Assembly (NCBI GenBank): GCA_035540975.1
Contig: DATLFN010000008.1
Span: 1-58,868 of the forward strand
Origin: Acidimicrobiales bacterium
GTDB lineage: Bacteria > Actinomycetota > Acidimicrobiia > Acidimicrobiales > GCA-2861595
DNA length: 58,868 nucleotides
Direction of reading: 5' to 3'
Positions 161 through 58,317 of the stretch are shown one piece after another; the stretch's first letter is position 1; each line of letters starts with the position of its first letter. The notes beneath the pieces were generated by a model. That model was not told where the DNA came from. It saw only the letters and a list, made by a program, of their open reading frames with translations, and ran no database searches. The position numbers and the translations under genes were made by a program.

Positions 161-622
161 TTCGAGGCTCTCCTTGGAGTCGGCGCCGGCCCCGGGGTGG
201 AGCCGGCGGGCGTTGGTCGGAGGACTGATCGCCCGGACGCCCCCGCTCCGTCGCGCCGACCGTCGCTTCGAGCGGCTGGTGGTGCGACCCGCAGGGATGT
301 CATCCGCTCGGGTGGCGCCGCCGGCGCGGCGGATGGCACGACAACGCTCGCCGGGGAGCCCGGAGCGTTCCGCCGGCTTCGTCGCGGCGCGCCCGGCAAC
401 GCTCCGGGTCACGTCGGTCCCACCGGGGGGCAGCACCACCAAACGGCGCGAACCCTGTCAAGGCCGACGGGAGGTGTGCCGAAGAACTGAGTAGCCAGGC
501 TGGTCCGACAAGAGCACCCCGGTCGTGAGACCGGTCCGCAAAGCCACGGGACTCATCGAGTCAGCCGAGCCGCCGAAGTCAGCCGGTCCTGGATTCCAGC
601 CTCACGGAAGAAGGGACCTCCC
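161..622. other. Intergenic region, no gene seen
   Basis: Divergent space between the left-edge secreted protein and the zincin gene. Open frames here are low-complexity arginine/alanine/proline translations typical of non-coding GC-rich DNA. It presumably holds both promoters, but I see no convincing -10/-35 pair, repeat or RNA. Confidence 0.5.
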
Positions 623-1177
623 ATGCGCTCCTGCCGTTCCGCCGCCTTTGCCGCGGTCGCCGCCTCCGCAGCACTCGCCGCCGCTCTCGCCTTCGCCGCC
701 GCCCCCGGTCGTGCGGCCGCATCGCCGTCGTTCGCCCACTGGGCGGAGCGGTCGCTGGTCGTGAGCGACCGCACCGGCGATCCCGGGTGGCAGCAGGCCA
801 CCCGCCAGGCCGTGGACACCTGGAACGCGGTCGGCGCCGACGTGCGGCTCTCCTGGACGGAGGGCGGCATCGGCTGTGAGCCCGAGGGTCCGATCATCCC
901 CGTGTGCCGCGATCTGCTGCCCGCCGGCTGGAGGGGCGCCGCCGCCCTCCACAGCGCGCCCGACGGCCACCTGGGCGGAGCTCGCATCCGTTTCGACGCG
1001 GACCGCACGTTCACCCAGGCGCAGAAGGACAACCTCGCCTGCCACGAGATCGGCCACGCTCTCGGGCTCGGGCACTCCGGGTCGAGCGCGTCGTGCCTCA
1101 CGCAAGGCTCGGAGACGGCCGCTCCCGACGCCGCCGACGCGGCGAGCCTTCGGGCCAGCTACGCCCACGCCGGCTGA
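623..1177 (+). CDS. Secreted zinc metalloprotease (matrixin-like zincin)
   Basis: A 184-residue protein with an N-terminal signal peptide (about residues 1-32, ending near AAPGRAAA) and one catalytic zinc motif, HEIGHALGLGHS, at about residues 141-152. This is the HExxHxxGxxH signature of metzincins such as M10A matrixins, with three histidine zinc ligands and a catalytic Glu. The region before it (DTWNAVGADVRLSW) resembles the beta-strand part of small matrixin catalytic domains. No propeptide cysteine switch or extra domain is visible. The start is backed by a purine-rich GAAGAAGGGA shortly upstream. It likely acts outside the cell on proteins or peptides; substrate unknown. Confidence 0.75.
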   Translation: MRSCRSAAFAAVAASAALAAALAFAAAPGRAAASPSFAHWAERSLVVSDRTGDPGWQQATRQAVDTWNAVGADVRLSWTEGGIGCEPEGPIIPVCRDLLPAGWRGAAALHSAPDGHLGGARIRFDADRTFTQAQKDNLACHEIGHALGLGHSGSSASCLTQGSETAAPDAADAASLRASYAHAG

Positions 1178-12582: not shown

Positions 12583-13626
12583 TCACCCGCCCTCGAGTCG
12601 GTCCGGCCCGCCCGCCGTCGCCGCCTCCCTCGCGTCCGGGCCGCCGGACCGAAACCACACGGTGCGCTGTGGGAACGGGATCTCGATGCCGGCGTCGTCG
12701 AACGCCCGCTTGATGCGCGCTCGCAGTTCCCGGGCCACCCGCCACTGGGCCAGCGGCTGGGTCTTGACCACCAGGCGGATCACGACGCCGTCCGCGCCGA
12801 GCGCCTCGACGCCCCACACCTCGGGCTCGGCGAGGATCGACTCGGACCAGTGCGGGTCCTCCCACGTCTCCCGGGCGACCCGCTCGATGACCTCGGCGGC
12901 GCGGTACGTACCCGTGGCGTAGGCGACCTGGACGTCGAGCAGGGCCCTCGACCAGTCCTGCGACTTGTTGGCGACGCGGGCAATCTCGCCGTTCGGCACG
13001 TGCCAGACGTTGCCCTCGACGTCCCGCAGCCGGGTCGTGCGCAGGCTCAGGCCCTCGACCGTCCCCGACGCCGGTCCCACATCGATCACGTCGCCCACGC
13101 CGTACTGGTCCTCGATGAGCATGAAGATCCCCGAGAGGAAGTCGCGCACGAGGTTCTGGGCCCCGAAGCCGAGGGCGATGCCGACGATCCCCGCACCCGC
13201 CACGAGGGGCCCCAGGTCGACGCCGAGCTCGCCGAGGACGGTCAGGGCGGCGACCGTCCAGATGGCGAACCCCGCCACGCTGGCGAGCAGCCCCCCGATC
13301 GTCTCGGCCCGCTGCGCCGTGCGGGCCGTCGGCGGGCCACCGGTCCGGAGCAAGGCCCCGGCCGAGCGCTCGCTGGCGGACACGACGTCCGCGCTGACCG
13401 CCCCGAGCCCCCGGATGAACCGCCCGACCGCCCTGCGCACCAGGCGCGCGGAGAGCCACGCCAGGGCGAGGACGAGCAGGATCTTGGTCGGCCGCGCCAG
13501 GAACAGGTCGCCCGCCCGGGCCGCCGCCTCGCTCCCGGTCAGCCGGAACAGGGCCGTGCAGACCGCGCCCGCCTCCTCGGAGGACCCGCACGCGGTCGTC
13601 GGGGTCTCGGCGTGGGCGAGCATCAC
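12583..13626 (-). CDS. MscS-family mechanosensitive channel
   Basis: A 347-residue protein. A helix near residues 45-62 (TKILLVLALAWLSARLV) and one near 110-130 precede the MscS pore helix and beta domain: LVAGAGIVGIALGFGAQNLV (TM3, GxAxGFGAQ), DFLSGIFMLIEDQYGVGDVI, then GTVEGLSLRTTRLRDVEGNV and VPNGEIARVANKSQ. This is the core signature of small-conductance channels that open under hypo-osmotic stress. The first codon is GTG with an ATG following. A GTCACGG direct repeat lies ~85-100 bases upstream (13707-13724), the same motif as before the response regulator operon. Confidence 0.85.
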   Translation of the reverse strand: MMLAHAETPTTACGSSEEAGAVCTALFRLTGSEAAARAGDLFLARPTKILLVLALAWLSARLVRRAVGRFIRGLGAVSADVVSASERSAGALLRTGGPPTARTAQRAETIGGLLASVAGFAIWTVAALTVLGELGVDLGPLVAGAGIVGIALGFGAQNLVRDFLSGIFMLIEDQYGVGDVIDVGPASGTVEGLSLRTTRLRDVEGNVWHVPNGEIARVANKSQDWSRALLDVQVAYATGTYRAAEVIERVARETWEDPHWSESILAEPEVWGVEALGADGVVIRLVVKTQPLAQWRVARELRARIKRAFDDAGIEIPFPQRTVWFRSGGPDAREAATAGGPDRLEGG

Positions 13627-13732: not shown

Positions 13733-14296
13733 TCAGGCGATCATGCCGGCGTAGTCGTCCCGGGCAACGGGCGCCGGGGCCAACGACCCGTCCGAGCGGG
13801 GGACCTGGACGGGGACGCCGTCGAGCCGGAAGGCGACCTGGCCCACGCCGGGCAGAGCGGTCAGGGTGCAGACCAGCTGGGCGACGAGCATGACCTGGGC
13901 GTCGGAGCCGACGGCGGCGGCGGCCGGCGCCAGGTCGACCTGGGCGACACCGGCGCGGACGTCCACCGCCAGGACCAGCGCCACGTCGGGCAGGGCGGTG
14001 GTCAGGCCCGCGGGCTCACGAGGCGGCGAGACGAGCGCGCCCACCACGTCGAGCGGGCTTGGCGAGGCCTCGATCGGCTGGGCGACGGGAACGACCATCC
14101 GGCCGGCCACGAAGCACAGCTCGACGTCCGCCGTGGTCTCGGCCGTCGGGCGCAGCAGCGGTGGTGCGTCCGGGTCGAGCAGCGCGTAGGGCACAGCGCC
14201 ATCGGCCTCCGTCCGAGCCGAACGCTCGACCGGCACACCGCACCCGATCGCGACGAGCACGACGGCGCACGCCAGGGCGACGCGGGCCGTCCTCAC
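13733..14296 (-). CDS. GerMN-domain lipoprotein (LpqB-like)
   Basis: A 187-residue exported lipoprotein. The N terminus has a signal helix ending in the lipobox VAIG-C (Cys about residue 19). The rest is one GerMN-type domain: TADVELCFVAGRMVVPVAQ, then PLDVVGALVSPPREP, ALVLAVDVRAGVAQVDLAPA and LVAQLVCTLTALPGVGQVAF, matching the sporulation/spore-germination fold found in LpqB. Its GTG overlaps the stop of the kinase gene (GTGA), the same arrangement as mtrB-lpqB. LpqB-like proteins modulate the kinase from outside the membrane, which is the inferred role here. It is shorter than LpqB and lacks its beta-propeller. Confidence 0.8.
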   Translation of the reverse strand: MRTARVALACAVVLVAIGCGVPVERSARTEADGAVPYALLDPDAPPLLRPTAETTADVELCFVAGRMVVPVAQPIEASPSPLDVVGALVSPPREPAGLTTALPDVALVLAVDVRAGVAQVDLAPAAAAVGSDAQVMLVAQLVCTLTALPGVGQVAFRLDGVPVQVPRSDGSLAPAPVARDDYAGMIA

Positions 14297-15663
14297 GGGC
14301 GGATACCGGGAAGCTCGAACACGAAGCGGGCGCCGCCGCCGGGGGCCTCCTCGACCCAGGCCCGCCCACCGTGCAGCCGGAGGTGCTCCTCCACCAGAGC
14401 CAGCCCCAGCCCCGTCCCGGTGCCAGTGCCCGCCTCGACCCCGGCCGAGCCGCGAGCAAAGCGACGGAACACCGTGTCTCGCTCCTCCGGCGGCACCCCG
14501 GGGCCGTCGTCGTCGAGGACGATCCGCACGCCGCCGTCGCTCGCGGCCACGGTCACCTGCGTCGTGCCCCCGGCGTAGACGCCGGCGTTCACCATCACGT
14601 TGGCCAGCGCCTGGGCGAGGCGGCGCCGGTCTGCGACGATCTCCCTCGGTGCGCCGTCGGCCATGGCGAGGCGGGCGCCGGGGGCGTGCTCGTCGAGCTG
14701 GTCGCGGACCAGCGCCTCGAGATCGACGGGCTCGGCACGGACCTCTGCCGTGCCAGCGTCGCTCCGGGCGATGTCCAGCAGCTCCACGACCGTCCGCTCG
14801 AACCCGGCCACCCGCTGGGTCAGCACGTCGAGGACTGCCGCGGCATCCGCGGTGAAGGTGGCTCGCCTCCGCTGGAGAACGTCGACCGAGGCGCGGATGG
14901 CGGCGAGCGGCGAGCGCAGCTCGTGGGTGACGTCGGCCGTGAACCGGATCTCGCGCTCGACCCGGGACTCGAGGGCGGCCGCCATGTCGTTGAAGGCGAC
15001 GACGAGAGGACGCAGCTCGCCGTCCGCAGGTACCGGAAGCCGGGTGGCGAGATCGCCGGCGGCGATGCGCGCCGCCGCCGCGCCGACCGGGGCGAGGGGG
15101 CGCACCGCCCGCCCGGCACTGGCCCATCCCAGCCCTCCGGCGACCACGCTCGCGGCGACCGCCGCCACGGACGACGCCCGTGCGAACAGCGAAAGCGTGC
15201 GGTCCACGTCGTCCAGCGGGAAGATCTCGTACCACTCGGCGTCCACGGCTCGCACCGGGACGCCGACGGCGAGGCGGGGACGGCCGTCCGCACCCGCCGT
15301 GCGTTGGAGGCCGGCATGGCCGGCGCCCACCACCCTCGTCAGGTCGCGGGGGACGGCGTCGGCACCGCCGATCACGGTCGCGTACCACTCGCCGTGGTAG
15401 CGCAGGGCGGCGTCGGACGCGTTGCCACCGTCGATGCTCGCCATGAGGGCCGCCAGGTCGGCGTCGCTCGCCCTCAGGGCGCTGCGCACGAGGCGAGCGT
15501 GCGCGTATGCCTGTGACCGGGCCGCGTCGTCCCGCTGCTCGAGCAGGTACCGGCGAGCCAGGACGTAACCGGCGACGGCGACGGCCACGGCCACCACGAG
15601 GCCGGTCAGGGCGAACCCGATCGCCACGCGGCCTCGCAGGCCGAACAGGCGGGAGCGGCTCAC
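14293..15663 (-). CDS. Sensor histidine kinase (second of cluster)
   Basis: A 456-residue membrane kinase. TM1 is at about residues 10-32 (IGFALTGLVVAVAVAVAGYV), an extracytoplasmic domain spans ~33-165, TM2 follows (SSVAAVAASVVAGGLGWA), then HAMP. The dimerisation domain has the H box FTADVTHELRSPLAAI. The catalytic domain has the N box (LANVMVNAGVYA), G1 DDDGPGVP and G2 GTGLGLALVEEHL. The GTG start (15663) overlaps the stop of the upstream degenerate regulator (GTGA) and the stop overlaps the lipoprotein start. Its phospho-acceptor partner is not the adjacent regulator, whose receiver lacks the Asp; the canonical regulator at the head of the operon is a candidate. Confidence 0.88.
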   Translation of the reverse strand: MSRSRLFGLRGRVAIGFALTGLVVAVAVAVAGYVLARRYLLEQRDDAARSQAYAHARLVRSALRASDADLAALMASIDGGNASDAALRYHGEWYATVIGGADAVPRDLTRVVGAGHAGLQRTAGADGRPRLAVGVPVRAVDAEWYEIFPLDDVDRTLSLFARASSVAAVAASVVAGGLGWASAGRAVRPLAPVGAAAARIAAGDLATRLPVPADGELRPLVVAFNDMAAALESRVEREIRFTADVTHELRSPLAAIRASVDVLQRRRATFTADAAAVLDVLTQRVAGFERTVVELLDIARSDAGTAEVRAEPVDLEALVRDQLDEHAPGARLAMADGAPREIVADRRRLAQALANVMVNAGVYAGGTTQVTVAASDGGVRIVLDDDGPGVPPEERDTVFRRFARGSAGVEAGTGTGTGLGLALVEEHLRLHGGRAWVEEAPGGGARFVFELPGIRP

Positions 15664-16418
15664 GGCCGGAGCACGAAGCCGTCGCCTTGGACCGCTTCGA
15701 CGGCTGGCGCACCGGCGGCCGTCAGGACGGCCGACAGCCGGGCGATGCACTCGTCGAGGCGCTCCGCCGCGCCCCGGCCATGGCGGGCCGCGAGACGCTC
15801 CCGGAGGGCGGCGCGCGTGACGACGCACCCGCAGCGCTCCGCCAGGGTGCCGAGCACGGTGGCGTCCTCGGCCGTCACGTCTTGGTCGACACCCTCCATC
15901 CGGCCCGCCCCCCGAGCGACCCGGACGGCGACGGGGCCGAGCCGCACGGTCCGCTCGGCGGCCAGCGGGCCGGCCGTCCGCCGGACGACCGCCCGTAGGC
16001 GGGCAGCCACTTCGTCAGGGTGGAAGGGGAGGTCGATGTGATCGTCGGCACCGGCGTCGAGCGCGGCCAGTCGGCTCACCGCCCCCCCGGCGGAAACGAC
16101 CAGGATGGCCGTCCGCCCTCGCCGCCGGATTTGCGTGCACAACTCGGGTACGTCGATTCCGGGCAGCGCCGACGCCACCACGACGGCGTCGAGCAGGTGG
16201 ACGCCCGCCAGGTAGAGCGCGGTCTCGCCATCGGCCGCAAACACCGTGGTCAGACCCACCCTGCGGACCACGCGCTCGATCCGGTCCCTCGTCTCGGCCA
16301 TGGTGCAGACGACGAGGACCCGGCCGCGCAGCGGCGCAGGCGGTCCGCTGCCCATCCCCGGCTCGGTCCGCACCATGTCGTCGAGCGTGGCAGCTACGTG
16401 CTGCCCATCGGTCGCCAT
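15660..16418 (-). CDS. OmpR-type regulator with degenerate receiver domain
   Basis: A 252-residue protein. Residues ~30-145 are receiver-like: RVLVVCTMAETRDRIERVV, then LLDAVVVASALPGIDVPELC, then ILVVSAGGAVSRLAALDAGA and DDHIDLPFHPDEVAARLRAV. Three key positions differ from active receivers: the acidic pair after VLVV is CTM, the phospho-acceptor Asp position in DAVVVASALPG is Ala/Ser, and the conserved Lys of KPF is replaced in LPFHPDE. A C-terminal OmpR-like winged helix remains (DQDVTAEDATVLGTLAERCG, ending VEAVQGDGFVLRP). It should not be phosphorylated in the normal way. It lies between two kinases, 4 bases after one and overlapping the other. The ATG at 16418 is chosen; no strong ribosome binding site. 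Confidence 0.75.
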   Translation of the reverse strand: MATDGQHVAATLDDMVRTEPGMGSGPPAPLRGRVLVVCTMAETRDRIERVVRRVGLTTVFAADGETALYLAGVHLLDAVVVASALPGIDVPELCTQIRRRGRTAILVVSAGGAVSRLAALDAGADDHIDLPFHPDEVAARLRAVVRRTAGPLAAERTVRLGPVAVRVARGAGRMEGVDQDVTAEDATVLGTLAERCGCVVTRAALRERLAARHGRGAAERLDECIARLSAVLTAAGAPAVEAVQGDGFVLRP

Positions 16419-16422
16419 CGGG

Positions 16423-17841
16423 TCACGGCTGGGCAACAGCGTGGGGCCGCACCTCGGTGGCGGGCGGTGCGGCGGCGGGCAGGCGGAGCGTGAAGCATGT
16501 GGCGCCGGCGCTGGCGTCGCCGAGGAACAGCTCGCCGTGCTGGGCAAGGGCGTGCTGGCGGGCGATCGACAGGCCGAGACCCGAACCTGTGGCGGCTCGC
16601 GAAGCGTCCGACTTGAAGAACCGGTCGAACACACGCTCCTCGTCGCCCGCCGCGATGCCCGGGCCGTGGTCGACCACGTTGACCAGCACGTCGGCGCCGT
16701 CCGCCTCGGCGGAGATGCGAACCCGCCCGCCGCCGTGGACGATCGCGTTGTCGAGCAGGTTCGCCAGGATGCGCCGGAGGCGGTGGGGCTCGGCGAGCAC
16801 GGAGAGGCCGTCCGGCAGGTCGATCTCGATGCCGGCATCTCGCCGGAGATGCGCCGACGCGACAACGGCGGCGACGGCGTCGGAGAGGCGGAGGGGCTCG
16901 GCCAGAACGGGCTCCGTCCCCCGGTCCAGCCGCGACAGCTCCAGGAGCTCCAGCACGAGGTCCCGCAGACGATGAACGTCGGCGACGAGCACGGTCGCCA
17001 CGCGTCGCAGCGACGACGGGAGATCGTCGAGGTGCTCGGCGAGGACCGACGCGGAGGCCGACATGCCGGTGAGGGGGGTCCGCAGCTCATGGGCGACGTC
17101 AGCCGTGAAGCGGCGCTCGCGCTCCGCCGACTCGTTCAGCTGGTCGATCAGTTCCTTGAGCTCGTCGGCCATGTGGTTGAACGACGCAGCGAGGGCGCCG
17201 AACTCGTCCCGCGACGCGGCCTCCAGCCGCGCGTCCAGGTCCCCGCCGGCGATCGCCTCGGCAGCTTCGGCGGCGGCGGCGACGGGGCGCAGCGTCTGCC
17301 GAGCGACGACCTGGCCGACGGCACCGGCCAACACGACCGTCACCGCCCATCCGGCGGCGGCGACTCTGCCGAGCTCGCCGAGGCTCTCACGCAGCTGCTC
17401 GAGCGAGAAGAAGAAGTAGTACCGCGAAGCGGCGGGGCCCTCGGCGGCGACGACGAGCGAGTCACGTCCGTCGACCACGTCCTCGACGACGGCCGGTTCC
17501 TGGTCGATGTCCCGGGCGACGAGCGACGGCGGTACGTCGGAGAGGTTGCGGCTCGGCGACGACGAGAAGGTCCGGCCTCCCTGCGACGCGATCATGTCGG
17601 CCTCACTGCGCTGCTCGTACGCCTCGCGGAGCCGGGTGAAGCTTTCGTGGTCCAGGTCGCGGGGCGCAAAGGCGAGGGCGATGCGCGCCTCACGCAGGCT
17701 GGCGGCGCGGAAGTTGCGCCACCGGTACTCCCGCGCCAGGACGAACGTCACCACGGCGACCACGCCGGCGCTCACCGCCGCGACGATCAGGAAGGCGGCC
17801 GTGAGCCGGCGCCGGAACCGGTGCGGCGCCCTGTCATCCAC
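16423..17841 (-). CDS. Sensor histidine kinase (MtrB/CseC-like)
   Basis: A 472-residue kinase. TM1 is about residues 15-36 (AAFLIVAAVSAGVVAVVTFV), the extracytoplasmic sensor covers ~37-150, TM2 follows (WAVTVVLAGAVGQVVA), then HAMP (LRPVAAAAEAAEAIAGGDLD). The H box is FTADVAHELRTPLTGM, the N box LANLLDNAIVHGG, G1 VDHGPGIA and G2 GSGLGLSIARQHA. The GTG at 17841 overlaps the regulator stop by 8 bases; an ATG 21 bases further upstream is also in frame. It is the likely cognate kinase of the regulator at 17834-18526. Confidence 0.88.
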   Translation of the reverse strand: MDDRAPHRFRRRLTAAFLIVAAVSAGVVAVVTFVLAREYRWRNFRAASLREARIALAFAPRDLDHESFTRLREAYEQRSEADMIASQGGRTFSSSPSRNLSDVPPSLVARDIDQEPAVVEDVVDGRDSLVVAAEGPAASRYYFFFSLEQLRESLGELGRVAAAGWAVTVVLAGAVGQVVARQTLRPVAAAAEAAEAIAGGDLDARLEAASRDEFGALAASFNHMADELKELIDQLNESAERERRFTADVAHELRTPLTGMSASASVLAEHLDDLPSSLRRVATVLVADVHRLRDLVLELLELSRLDRGTEPVLAEPLRLSDAVAAVVASAHLRRDAGIEIDLPDGLSVLAEPHRLRRILANLLDNAIVHGGGRVRISAEADGADVLVNVVDHGPGIAAGDEERVFDRFFKSDASRAATGSGLGLSIARQHALAQHGELFLGDASAGATCFTLRLPAAAPPATEVRPHAVAQP

Positions 17842-18526
17842 GCTCGAACCGATACCCGACACCGCGCACCGTCGTGATGTAACCCTCGTCGCCCGGTGGG
17901 TCGCCGAGCTTTCCCCGCAGGCGGTTGACGGCCATGTCGACCAGCCGCGAGTCGCCGAGGTAGTCGTAGCCCCACACGCGCTCGAGCAGGATCTCGCGGG
18001 TCATCACCCTCCCGGCGTTGCGGACCAGCTCGGCGAGAAGCCGGAACTCGATGGTGGTGAGCCGCATCTCCTCACCTCGCCGGTACGCCCTGAAGCCGGC
18101 CTCGTCCACCACGACATCGTTGCAGCGGAGCTCCTCGGCACCGGCCCCGGGCTGGTCGCCCGAGGACCGCCGGAGCACAGCCCGGATTCGAGCCGCCAGC
18201 TCGGCCGGAGCAAACGGCTTGGTGATGTAGTCGTCGGCGCCGAGCTCCAGGCCGGCGACCACGTCGGTGACCTCGGTTCTCGCCGTAAGCATGACGATGG
18301 GGACGCCCGAGGTCCGACGGATCTCTCGGCACACGTCGTACCCGTTGCGGCAGGGCAGCATGAGGTCGAGCAGCACGAGGTCGAACGAGGGCTCGGCGGC
18401 GAGCGACGCCAGCGCCTCGTCGCCGTCACCTACCCCGGTCACGGAGAACCCGGCCCGTTCGAGGACGATCGCAGCCGCCTCTCGGACCGACGCATCGTCC
18501 TCCACCACGAGGATGTGCCCGGACAT
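17834..18526 (-). CDS. OmpR-family response regulator (MtrA/CseB-like)
   Basis: A 230-residue regulator with a complete receiver: HILVVEDDASVREAA (acidic pair), LVLLDLMLP (phospho-acceptor Asp near residue 53), VIVMLTAR-type Thr, and YITKPFAP (Lys). The DNA-binding winged helix (residues ~135-228) has LTTIEFRLLAELVRNAGRVM, then VWGYDYLGDSRLVDMAVNRL and VRGVGYRFE. It heads a tightly overlapping operon with two kinases, a degenerate regulator and a GerMN lipoprotein. A GTCACGG direct repeat 56-73 bases upstream of the ATG suggests autoregulation. Confidence 0.9.
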   Translation of the reverse strand: MSGHILVVEDDASVREAAAIVLERAGFSVTGVGDGDEALASLAAEPSFDLVLLDLMLPCRNGYDVCREIRRTSGVPIVMLTARTEVTDVVAGLELGADDYITKPFAPAELAARIRAVLRRSSGDQPGAGAEELRCNDVVVDEAGFRAYRRGEEMRLTTIEFRLLAELVRNAGRVMTREILLERVWGYDYLGDSRLVDMAVNRLRGKLGDPPGDEGYITTVRGVGYRFERG

Positions 18527-20529: not shown

Positions 20530-21624
20530 ATGGAGGTCGATCGGCGCGTCGAGGAGTCTGGCGACGATGACCGACGGGTAGGGTCGACACGACACCGGGT
20601 CAAGTGGCAGCCCATCCGCCGACGCCGTCCCCGCTCAGGATCCTTCGTCCTCTCTTGGAGGCTCGTCACCCTCACCGCTGACCTCGCCCGCTCCTGGCGC
20701 CTGACGCAGGACGATCCGGCCACCGAGGTGGCCGAGTTGCGACAAAGCGCAAACAGCGCGTGGGAGACCTTCGTCGAAGCGCTGCCCCGTGCCGGGATCG
20801 CCCTCGCGGTCCTCGCAGGCTTCTTCGTCGTCGGCCGTCTCCTGCGCCCGGTCGTCCGCCGCCGTCTCGCTCGGTCGAGGACACCCAGCTTCAGCCGAGT
20901 GTTCGCCCGCCTCACCTCGGCCACCATGACGTTGCTCGGGTTCCTTACCGCCGTGGCCATCGTGTTCCCCTCGGTCCGTCCCGTCGATCTGCTGGCCGGC
21001 GCCGGTGTGCTGTCCGTCGCCGCCGGGTTCGCGTTCCAAGACATCCTCCAGAACCTGTTGGCCGGCCTCCTGCTGTTGTTCCGCCAGCCCTTCCGGGGCG
21101 GCGACCAGATCGAGGTGGGCGACGTGGCCGGCACGGTGGAGGAGATCAACATCCGCGAGACGGTGATCGTCACCTTCGAGGGTCGGCGCGTCCTCATCCC
21201 CAACGCCAAGGTGTACTCGGACGTCATCACCGTCCAGACGGCGCGGCGGTTGATCCGCGCCAACTTCGTCGTCGGCGTCGCCTACGAGACGGACATCGAC
21301 ACGGCGCGCCAGGTGGCCCTCGAGGCGGTCCGGGCGGTGGACGGTGTTGCATCCGAGCCGCCGCCTGAGGTGCTCGGCATGCAGCTGGCCACCTCGAGCG
21401 TCGAGCTCGACGTGCAGTTCTGGTGTGCCTCGCACCAGCTGGAGATGCGACGCACCCTCAGTGGCGCCGTTCAGGCGGTCAAGGAGGCGTTCGCAGCGAA
21501 CGACATCGAGATTCCCACCGACATCGTTGCCCTCCAGGCCACCCGCAGCCTCGCCGCCGTTCTCGATGGGCGACGTGGCATGGCTGGCGAGCGCACCTCC
21601 GACGACGAGGCCGCCCGAAGGTGA
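20530..21624 (+). CDS. MscS-family mechanosensitive channel
   Basis: The frame gives 364 residues, but conserved sequence begins around residue 65 (SANSAWETFVEALPRAGIAL), so the true start may be downstream of 20530. TM helices: GIALAVLAGFFVVGRLL and ATMTLLGFLTAVAIVF. Pore helix and beta domain: LAGAGVLSVAAGFAFQDILQ, then NLLAGLLLLFRQPFRGGDQI, VGDVAGTVEEINIRETVI and VLIPNAKVYSDVITV. This is the classic MscS TM3 and beta fold. It is followed 29 bases later by a DUF2254 membrane protein, probably in the same operon, suggesting a joint role in osmotic or envelope stress. Confidence 0.85.
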   Translation: MEVDRRVEESGDDDRRVGSTRHRVKWQPIRRRRPRSGSFVLSWRLVTLTADLARSWRLTQDDPATEVAELRQSANSAWETFVEALPRAGIALAVLAGFFVVGRLLRPVVRRRLARSRTPSFSRVFARLTSATMTLLGFLTAVAIVFPSVRPVDLLAGAGVLSVAAGFAFQDILQNLLAGLLLLFRQPFRGGDQIEVGDVAGTVEEINIRETVIVTFEGRRVLIPNAKVYSDVITVQTARRLIRANFVVGVAYETDIDTARQVALEAVRAVDGVASEPPPEVLGMQLATSSVELDVQFWCASHQLEMRRTLSGAVQAVKEAFAANDIEIPTDIVALQATRSLAAVLDGRRGMAGERTSDDEAARR

Positions 21625-56621: not shown

Positions 56622-57338
56622 TCACGCCTCGCGGATGTCGAGCAGGCGCTCCTTGACGGCGTAGATCACCGCCTCCATGCGGTTGTGGAGGTGGAGCTTC
56701 TCCAGGATGTTCCGGACATGGTTCTTGACCGTGTTCTCGGAGATGTAGAGCTCCTCGGCGATCTCCCGGTTGCTCATGCCCTTGGCCACCAGGCGCAGCA
56801 CCTCGATCTCCCGGTTCGTGAGGGCAGGGGCCGGGAACTGCTGGCGGTCCTCGGCCCGGCGGACCAGGGCGTTGAACTCGCTGAGCAGCTTGGACGCCAT
56901 GGAGGGGGAGATCAGGCTCTGTCCCTGCATGACCGCCCGGATGGACTCGGCCACCTCGTCGACGGAGATCTCCTTCAGCAGGTAGCCGTTGGCACCCGCC
57001 TTGATCGCCTCGTAGAGGTCCTCCTCCTCGTCGCTCACGGTGAGCATGAGGATCTTGGTGCTCGGCAGGTCGGCCCGGATGGTGGCCGCCGCCTCGATGC
57101 CGTTGACCTTCGGCATGCGGACGTCCATCAGCACCACGTCGGGCGCCAGCTCGCGGGCCTTCTCGATCGCCTCCTGGCCGTTCTCGGCCTCGGCGACCAC
57201 GTCCACCCCGTCCTCGGTACCGAGGACCACGAACAGCCCGCGTCGGAACAGGGCCTGGTCGTCGGCGATCAGGACGCGGATGACCTCGTCCGACGACGCC
57301 TCACGCTCGTGATCCGACAGCCTCAGGTTCTCAGACAC
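56622..57338 (-). CDS. NarL/LuxR-family response regulator (orphan)
   Basis: A 238-residue regulator: receiver (VIRVLIADDQALFRRGLFVV, VVLMDVRMPKVNGIEAA with phospho-acceptor Asp near residue 70, ILMLTVSDEEEDL, KAGANGYLLKE), linker, and C-terminal LuxR helix-turn-helix (LTNREIEVLRLVAKGMSNRE, IAEELYISENTVKNHV). No histidine kinase is adjacent. GGAAGGAC precedes the GTG at 57338; the frame is open 41 codons further upstream without conserved sequence. It lies between hpf and secA. Confidence 0.88.
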   Translation of the reverse strand: MSENLRLSDHEREASSDEVIRVLIADDQALFRRGLFVVLGTEDGVDVVAEAENGQEAIEKARELAPDVVLMDVRMPKVNGIEAAATIRADLPSTKILMLTVSDEEEDLYEAIKAGANGYLLKEISVDEVAESIRAVMQGQSLISPSMASKLLSEFNALVRRAEDRQQFPAPALTNREIEVLRLVAKGMSNREIAEELYISENTVKNHVRNILEKLHLHNRMEAVIYAVKERLLDIREA

Positions 57339-57429
57339 CTTCGTCCTTCCCGGCGGGGACGGCCCGCCCGATGACCAAGAGCGGGCCGCCGGCGGCGGTG
57401 ATGCTCCATCTTGACTACTCATCGGCAGG

Positions 57430-58014
57430 TCAGGCCCCGTCGATGAGCCCGATATGACCATCCTTGCGCCGGTAGACCACGGCGGCGGCGCCGGTGTCGG
57501 CGTTGGTGAACAGGAAGAAGTCGTGGCTGAGCAGCTCCATCTGGAGCACGGCCTCCTCCGGGGTCATCGGCTTGATGGCGAACTGCTTGGTCCGGACGAT
57601 GCGGGGCGAGGCCTCGTCCGACTCCTCGGCTTCGGTCCCGACGGCCGCCACCGTACCCGCCGGGGCCGACGTGGCGGCGCCATGCGAGCCGGCGCCCGGC
57701 CGGCGGTGGTGGTTGCGCCCGTTCAGCTTCCCCTTGAGCTTCTCGATCCGGTGCTCCAGCTTGTCGACCACCCGGTCGACGGCCGCGAACGCATCGCCGG
57801 CGGTGGCCCGGGCGCGGACCACGTGGCCGTGGCCGTGCATCGTGACCTCGCAGACGTCCTTCTCGGCGATGCGGGGATTGCGCTCCTCGTGGAAGCGGAC
57901 CTCGGCGCGCTCCATGCCGTCGAGGAAGCGGACGAGGCGCGAGAGCTTCTCGTCCACCGCCTCTCGGAGCGTGTCCGACACCTCGACGTTGCGGCCCTGG
58001 ATGGAGATGTCCAC
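57430..58014 (-). CDS. hpf: Long-form ribosome hibernation promoting factor (RaiA/HPF)
   Basis: A 194-residue protein. N-terminal ribosome-binding domain (DISIQGRNVEVSDTLREAVD, EVTMHGHGHVVRARATAGDA, FAAVDRVVDKLEHRIEKLKG) and C-terminal dimerisation domain (IVRTKQFAIKPMTPEEAVLQ, MELLSHDFFLFTNADTGAAA, VVYRRKDGHIGLI). Long HPF dimerises 70S ribosomes to 100S in stationary phase. AGGAG lies before the GTG at 58014. The 303-base upstream region may hold a raiA-motif RNA. Confidence 0.92.
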   Translation of the reverse strand: MDISIQGRNVEVSDTLREAVDEKLSRLVRFLDGMERAEVRFHEERNPRIAEKDVCEVTMHGHGHVVRARATAGDAFAAVDRVVDKLEHRIEKLKGKLNGRNHHRRPGAGSHGAATSAPAGTVAAVGTEAEESDEASPRIVRTKQFAIKPMTPEEAVLQMELLSHDFFLFTNADTGAAAVVYRRKDGHIGLIDGA

Positions 58015-58317
58015 TCGGCTCCTCTCGATATCGGTATCGGCGTTCTGGTACGGGTCGCGTGCGGCTGACCTGGTCTTTGACCCCACACTCGCCTGCGGAG
58101 GGGTTCGCGCCTGCGGCGATGGCGGCTCCGGGGCCCCACACCGGCCGGCATCAGGCACTCCCCCCTTCTCCACCCCGCGCCGACAGCCGGCGCATCGATG
58201 GGCAGGACTTACCTCTAAACCGCACCATGCTCGGCAACCACGGGTTGCCTTACGTGGGTCGTTTCGCCCGCGGCTGGCATCGACTTTCAACCACAGACCC
58301 GCACGCGGCCCATGCCC
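58015..58317 (-). ncRNA. Candidate raiA-motif RNA in the comF-hpf gap
   Basis: On the minus strand this gap folds into several stems: GGCAACC/GGTTGCC with a CGT loop (58239-58255), GCGCCG/CGGCGC (58178-58194) and TCGATG/CATCGA pairing 58275-58280 with 58195-58200 over a distance. The G/A-rich unpaired stretch GGTTTAGAGGTAAGTCCTG lies between. Published raiA-motif RNAs of Firmicutes and Actinobacteria typically sit beside raiA/hpf and comFC, which is exactly this place. I have no covariance model at hand, so the identity rests on context and foldability. Confidence 0.45.

Follow-up and report, generated by a model that had tools for sequence, protein, structure and literature searches.

How can a response regulator that has lost its phosphorylation site serve an operon which also encodes an intact regulator and two sensor kinases? 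This question is raised by five minus-strand genes at positions 13733-18526 of the window, the whole analysed stretch of 58,868 nucleotides from an Acidimicrobiales bacterium. The genes overlap or nearly touch, as the first-pass annotation had described, and all five were confirmed in coordinates and domains:

17834..18526, minus strand: RR1, intact OmpR/PhoB-type regulator, MtrA-like (ATG start, 230 aa; Pfam Response_reg and Trans_reg_C)
16423..17841, minus strand: HK1, sensor kinase with HAMP, HisKA (FTADVAHELRTP) and HATPase_c (GTG start, 472 aa; Pfam)
15660..16418, minus strand: RR2, pseudo-receiver and degenerate winged-helix regulator (ATG start, 252 aa; Pfam, alignment, AlphaFold2)
14293..15663, minus strand: HK2, sensor kinase with HAMP, HisKA (FTADVTHELRSP) and HATPase_c (GTG start, 456 aa; Pfam)
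13733..14296, minus strand: GerMN-domain lipoprotein (GTG start, 187 aa; Germane 50.2 bits, Pfam)

The operon and its intact regulator-kinase pair

Read on the minus strand from 18526 to 13733, the order is RR1, HK1, RR2, HK2 and GerMN lipoprotein. RR1 and HK1 overlap by 8 nt, HK1 and RR2 are separated by a 4-nt gap, and the RR2/HK2 and HK2/GerMN junctions each consist of a GTGA overlap. We infer that the five genes form one translationally coupled operon, which presumably is also transcribed as one unit; a promoter and terminator scan of the locus gave no signal above chance. A gene for an MscS mechanosensitive channel lies directly downstream (12583-13626, minus strand), and a second MscS-like ORF, recognised by eye, is found about 2 kb past the other end of the operon (20530-21624, plus strand). 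Elsewhere in the window, a c-di-GMP-I riboswitch (503-577, plus strand, 46 bits) is located just upstream of a matrixin-type Peptidase_M10 ORF (623-1177, plus strand). A raiA RNA (58056-58307, minus strand, 147 bits) overlaps the long-start version of an S30AE ribosome-hibernation gene (57430-58290), the true start of which therefore probably lies further in; this gene is followed by an intact NarL-type regulator at 56622-57461.

RR1 is the intact OmpR-type regulator that had been expected, as it keeps E9/D10/D54/T81/K103 and has MtrA as its best solved relative (2gwr, 217 bits). MtrA and MtrB are also the best NCBIfam matches of RR1, HK1 and HK2, but all of them stay below the equivalog cut-offs: RR1 reaches 254.3 bits with the MtrA model NF040689 (cut-off 300; RR2 70.6 bits), and HK1 and HK2 reach 254.3 and 194.9 bits with the MtrB model NF040691 (cut-off 450). 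Both kinases possess an H-box (FTADVAHELRTP in HK1, FTADVTHELRSP in HK2) and, by inspection, the N, G1 and G2 motifs. Relatives of HK1 at E<=1e-80 occur in 8 of the 397 genomes of the order (this genome and 7 others), and a class-wide sample searched for HK1 yielded no further genome or locus. The pairs of G034, G209, G264, G321, G045 and G230 cluster with RR1 and HK1 in one clade, whose sister group comprises the GerMN-linked regulators and kinases. Within this genome RR1 is closest to the standard GerMN-module regulators (230 bits), followed by a regulator encoded elsewhere (G000:C85, 198 bits). By sequence, RR1 and HK1 constitute an intact pair of the MtrAB-like type, belonging to a subfamily that is rare, and from family knowledge RR1 should be able to accept phosphate with HK1 as its partner.

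Receiver and DNA-binding domain of RR2

RR2 passes as a receiver (Response_reg 40.2 bits, Pfam cut-off 30.2). The active site was read by aligning about 78 regulators with RR1 and RR2, and RR2 proves to have C/T/A/S/L at the five sites named above for RR1. The acidic pair (E to C and D to T), the phospho-accepting Asp (D to A) and the Lys (K to L) are gone, as the first-pass annotation had observed, and the switch residue Tyr100 is replaced by His. As Ser is tolerated in place of Thr, the catalytic loss is counted as four of five residues plus the Tyr switch. Family knowledge predicts that RR2 is unable to accept phosphate. The other GerMN-module regulators all have a full active site, save for T to S or E to D exchanges in some of them; the degeneracy is thus not a family trait, and the idea that it is common to the regulators of these modules was ruled out.

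The positions of the dimer face and of the DNA contacts follow established PhoB numbering, and columns at least 80% conserved among the regulators other than RR2 were treated as conserved. RR2 retains 14 of 17 such columns in the alpha4-beta5-alpha5 dimer face and none of 6 in the active site and switch, next to 16/31 elsewhere in the receiver and 16/38 in the DNA-binding domain. Among the dimer-face residues kept are D98, D99, E109, R113, R115, R119 and R120, and the usual interface salt-bridge residues are present (E94 as D, D99, E109, R113, R115). This enrichment over the rest of the receiver has a Fisher p of 0.009, and of 0.06 if the active-site positions are excluded. In the AlphaFold2 model (mean pLDDT 85.6, with values exceeding 90 for most of the receiver) both the receiver and the winged-helix fold are complete. 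The model matches solved receivers with an rmsd of 1.2-1.9 A, and PrrA of M. tuberculosis is the solved protein closest to RR2 in both fold and sequence. As a recognised receiver which lacks the phospho-Asp and the catalytic residues and retains the fold in its predicted model, RR2 falls under the definition of pseudo-receivers, or aspartate-less receivers (PMC4395418, PMC12632262). Members of this group are known to retain the dimer interface (PMC4395418), and RR2 is an extreme one among them, as the Y-T switch and DNA contacts are also lost and the gene is placed between two kinases.

The DNA-binding domain bears on the first alternative, according to which RR2 would be a phosphorylation-independent DNA-binding regulator whose amount is set by RR1 through control of the operon. 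A review puts this model forward for pseudo-receivers whose genes lie within two-component operons (PMC12632262), the same mode of activity has been proposed for CmrT, AtvR and ChxR, and the predicted winged-helix fold is in line with it. However, Trans_reg_C scores 21.9 bits in RR2, which is under the Pfam cut-off of 26.2, and the family residue is found at only 3 of 13 PhoB-type DNA-contact positions, with the 10 changed ones including W185A, R194E, R204S, K206V, T219A and R221Q. RR2 is probably unable to grip DNA in the normal way, and we regard a DNA-binding role as unlikely. As RR2 appears phosphate-blind and probably DNA-blind, yet keeps the receiver fold and the dimer face, it would most likely act by protein-protein contact.

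Distribution and origin of the parts

Conservation of the five-gene order among relatives, to which the first-pass annotation had tied its reading, was followed by reading the surroundings of Germane genes and of regulator and kinase matches, about 100 loci in all. A Germane gene is present in 67 of 99 relatives, and the usual arrangement is RR-HK-GerMN with a regulator that is always intact. None of the other genomes surveyed combines the five-gene order with a degenerate regulator. A conserved order was rejected, as in the sole other five-gene locus (G061, L087) both regulators are intact and the first pair is a different one. A genome of the same family (G005) appears to hold an ordinary intact module, split over two contigs. 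What stands is that the locus is a lineage-restricted variant of known themes.

No orthologue of RR2 was found in the genomes searched, in which its best matches, at about 97 bits and 35% identity, are intact regulators, and a scan of named genomes revealed no close relative. Against solved relatives RR2 ranks PrrA (82 bits) before RegX3 (63 bits) and MtrA (49 bits). The family behind its best genomic matches is likewise PrrA-first, whereas RR1 and the typical GerMN-module regulator are MtrA-first. The terminal branch of RR2 measures 4.8-7.9 substitutions per site (median about 0.25), and in AU tests a PrrA-like placement (p 0.76) and an MtrA-like one (p 0.58) both survive; with a branch of this length both origins are compatible. 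By similarity RR2 is closer to PrrA than to MtrA, as far as the sequences tell, while its placement in the tree would fit either.

Such extreme divergence, together with the occurrence in a single genome, could also mean that RR2 is a functionless decaying regulator, whose frame stays open only as translational coupling hands ribosomes from HK1 on to HK2. Yet long neutral drift would be expected to break the frame or the hydrophobic core. The frame is open, the predicted fold is intact, the dimer face is preferentially kept, and codon-position GC (0.82/0.55/0.88) resembles that of the neighbouring genes, for which reason RR2 looks like a gene in use. Decay without function therefore seems quite unlikely to us.

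The earlier picture of two joined mtrAB/lpqB systems, one of them with a regulator gone phosphate-blind, survives for RR1-HK1 but not for the second half. HK2 belongs to the broad family of kinases found in the RR-HK-GerMN modules of the order (L119, L107, L087), as does the lipoprotein with respect to its own family, and HK2 homologues at E<=1e-65 are present in 297 of 397 genomes of the order. The regulator of these modules is, however, always intact and MtrA-like. In a quick kinase tree, the groups of which were labelled from gene order, HK2 clusters with GerMN-linked kinases of G008, G216, G202, G129 and G308 (SH-aLRT 97), whereas all kinases of standard modules fall into a separate clade (SH-aLRT also 97). 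No regulator gene was seen directly upstream of the HK2-clade kinases; G008 has one downstream, and one G308 HK-GerMN locus sits at a contig edge. The best matches of the lipoprotein (G008, G216, G129) give the same picture. With RR2 degenerate and HK2 in a regulator-less clade, this part of the operon is not a standard module, and it is improbable that RR2 arose by decay of the regulator of a second mtrAB/lpqB system. The closer similarity to PrrA weakens that origin as well, with the reservation that the AU tests leave both placements standing. The HK-GerMN pairs of L180, L182, L183, L184 and L187, which have no adjacent regulator, group into a single kinase clade of the order, and several of the genomes concerned have more than one HK2-type kinase.

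The lipoprotein itself, whose gene is the only Germane gene of this genome, shows a lipobox-like AIGC close to its N-terminus and Germane as its only domain. It had been called LpqB-like; with 21.4 bits against the LpqB model NF010140 (GerMN plus beta-propeller, cut-off 881) this label does not hold. What the operon shares with MtrA-MtrB-LpqB of Actinomycetota is, besides the best model matches, a GerMN lipoprotein behind a kinase; it differs in the lacking beta-propeller and in having two kinases and a pseudo-regulator.

As HK2 stems from a regulator-less lineage and is joined to RR2 by a GTGA overlap, RR2 might dock on this orphan kinase without pairing with RR1 at all, its role then being that of a non-consuming competitor or an allosteric cofactor; binding competitors of such a kind have been proposed (PMC12632262). 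Against this, the residues of its alpha1 docking helix are unlike those of both GerMN-linked and RR1-type regulators, and its best-kept surface is the dimer face, not alpha1, which makes docking on HK2 alone improbable. A comparison of kinase-regulator specificity residues in the alignment was not decisive for pairing, and the G000:C85 regulator could be the partner of HK2. Very improbable is a cysteine redox sensor, for which RitR offers a precedent (PMC5965902; compare the Cys-ALR group): RR2 has five Cys where regulators usually have 1-3, three of them oddly placed (C38 at the DD1 acidic-pair site, C196 and C198 in the DNA-binding domain), but C94 is conserved across the family and the phospho-Asp position holds no Cys.

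A further receiver of this type was met in G209, where a 154-aa ORF (L174:6675-7139, G209:C1) follows the HK1 orthologue with a 4-nt GTGA overlap. It encodes a stand-alone pseudo-receiver without a DNA-binding domain, with D, T, S, R and G at the five sites, coding-like composition and a predicted fold (pLDDT 89). It was rejected as a clear orthologue of RR2, as the two have no specific similarity (16-18 bits). Together the two cases make two HK1-type loci in which a phosphate-blind receiver comes right after the kinase, and the remaining HK1 orthologues have no pseudo-receiver. This suggests that HK1-type systems may be able to recruit a pseudo-receiver subunit. A MarR-like regulator and a ClC-like channel, both named by eye from translations, adjoin the G209 locus (L174:7186-9377) and that of G008 (L130:2029-4187), two loci with different kinase types (RR-HK-pseudo-receiver in G209, HK-GerMN in G008).

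Possible role of RR2 and known counterparts

The reading preferred here, to which we give about an even chance, is that the operon was assembled from three elements, the RR1-HK1 pair, the RR2 pseudo-regulator and an HK2-GerMN pair from a lineage normally without a regulator gene in front, and that RR2 modulates RR1 or one of the kinases through protein contact. RR1 would be the sole phosphate-accepting regulator and the likely transcriptional output of HK1, possibly also of HK2, which together with the lipoprotein could add a further envelope signal, perhaps directed at RR1. RR2 might pair with RR1 and thereby lower or retarget the active RR1 dimers, or alternatively occupy a kinase. Docking to a kinase and heterodimerisation with the intact regulator had both been suggested before, and the preserved dimer face leaves them plausible. 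A more specific form, which we put forward tentatively and with less than even confidence, is that RR2 could be a bacterial counterpart of the eukaryotic Id proteins, a dimerisation partner which titrates the MtrA-like RR1 and has lost both phosphorylation and DNA binding. If so, the G209 pseudo-receiver would be a second case, with the DNA-binding domain dropped altogether.

Several known systems fit with tuning by protein contact. CmrRST of C. difficile likewise combines an intact OmpR regulator, a kinase and an OmpR regulator with altered receiver in one operon, and CmrR-CmrT heterodimers were seen in pull-down (PMC12548384). Gene order and couplings, known here from sequence alone, reproduce this three-component arrangement. 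In CmrT, by contrast, T and K are still present and a phosphomimetic Glu is found, whereas RR2 lacks the acidic pair, the Asp, the Lys and much of the DNA-contact set. The present operon also adds a second kinase and a GerMN lipoprotein. BldM/WhiI of Streptomyces (PMC4125116), two regulators with atypical receivers that work together as a heterodimer, provide a model for RR1-RR2 pairing, but they belong to another output-domain family and are not co-transcribed, whereas here one partner is a normal phospho-regulator. The non-cognate CenR stimulates phosphotransfer of EssS-EssR by way of a receiver contact (PMC10746171), and pseudo-receivers inside a two-component operon have been proposed to alter kinase or regulator reactions (PMC12632262).

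Several percent of bacterial receivers are pseudo-receivers, and how these are switched was called a mystery in a 2025 review (PMC12632262). As the operon of RR2 contains, besides it, a single intact regulator and two kinases, its possible partners are few, and each of them can be checked. If RR2 does pair with RR1, the operon would offer a clean example from nature of how a subunit devoid of both catalysis and DNA contact damps or retargets a two-component system.
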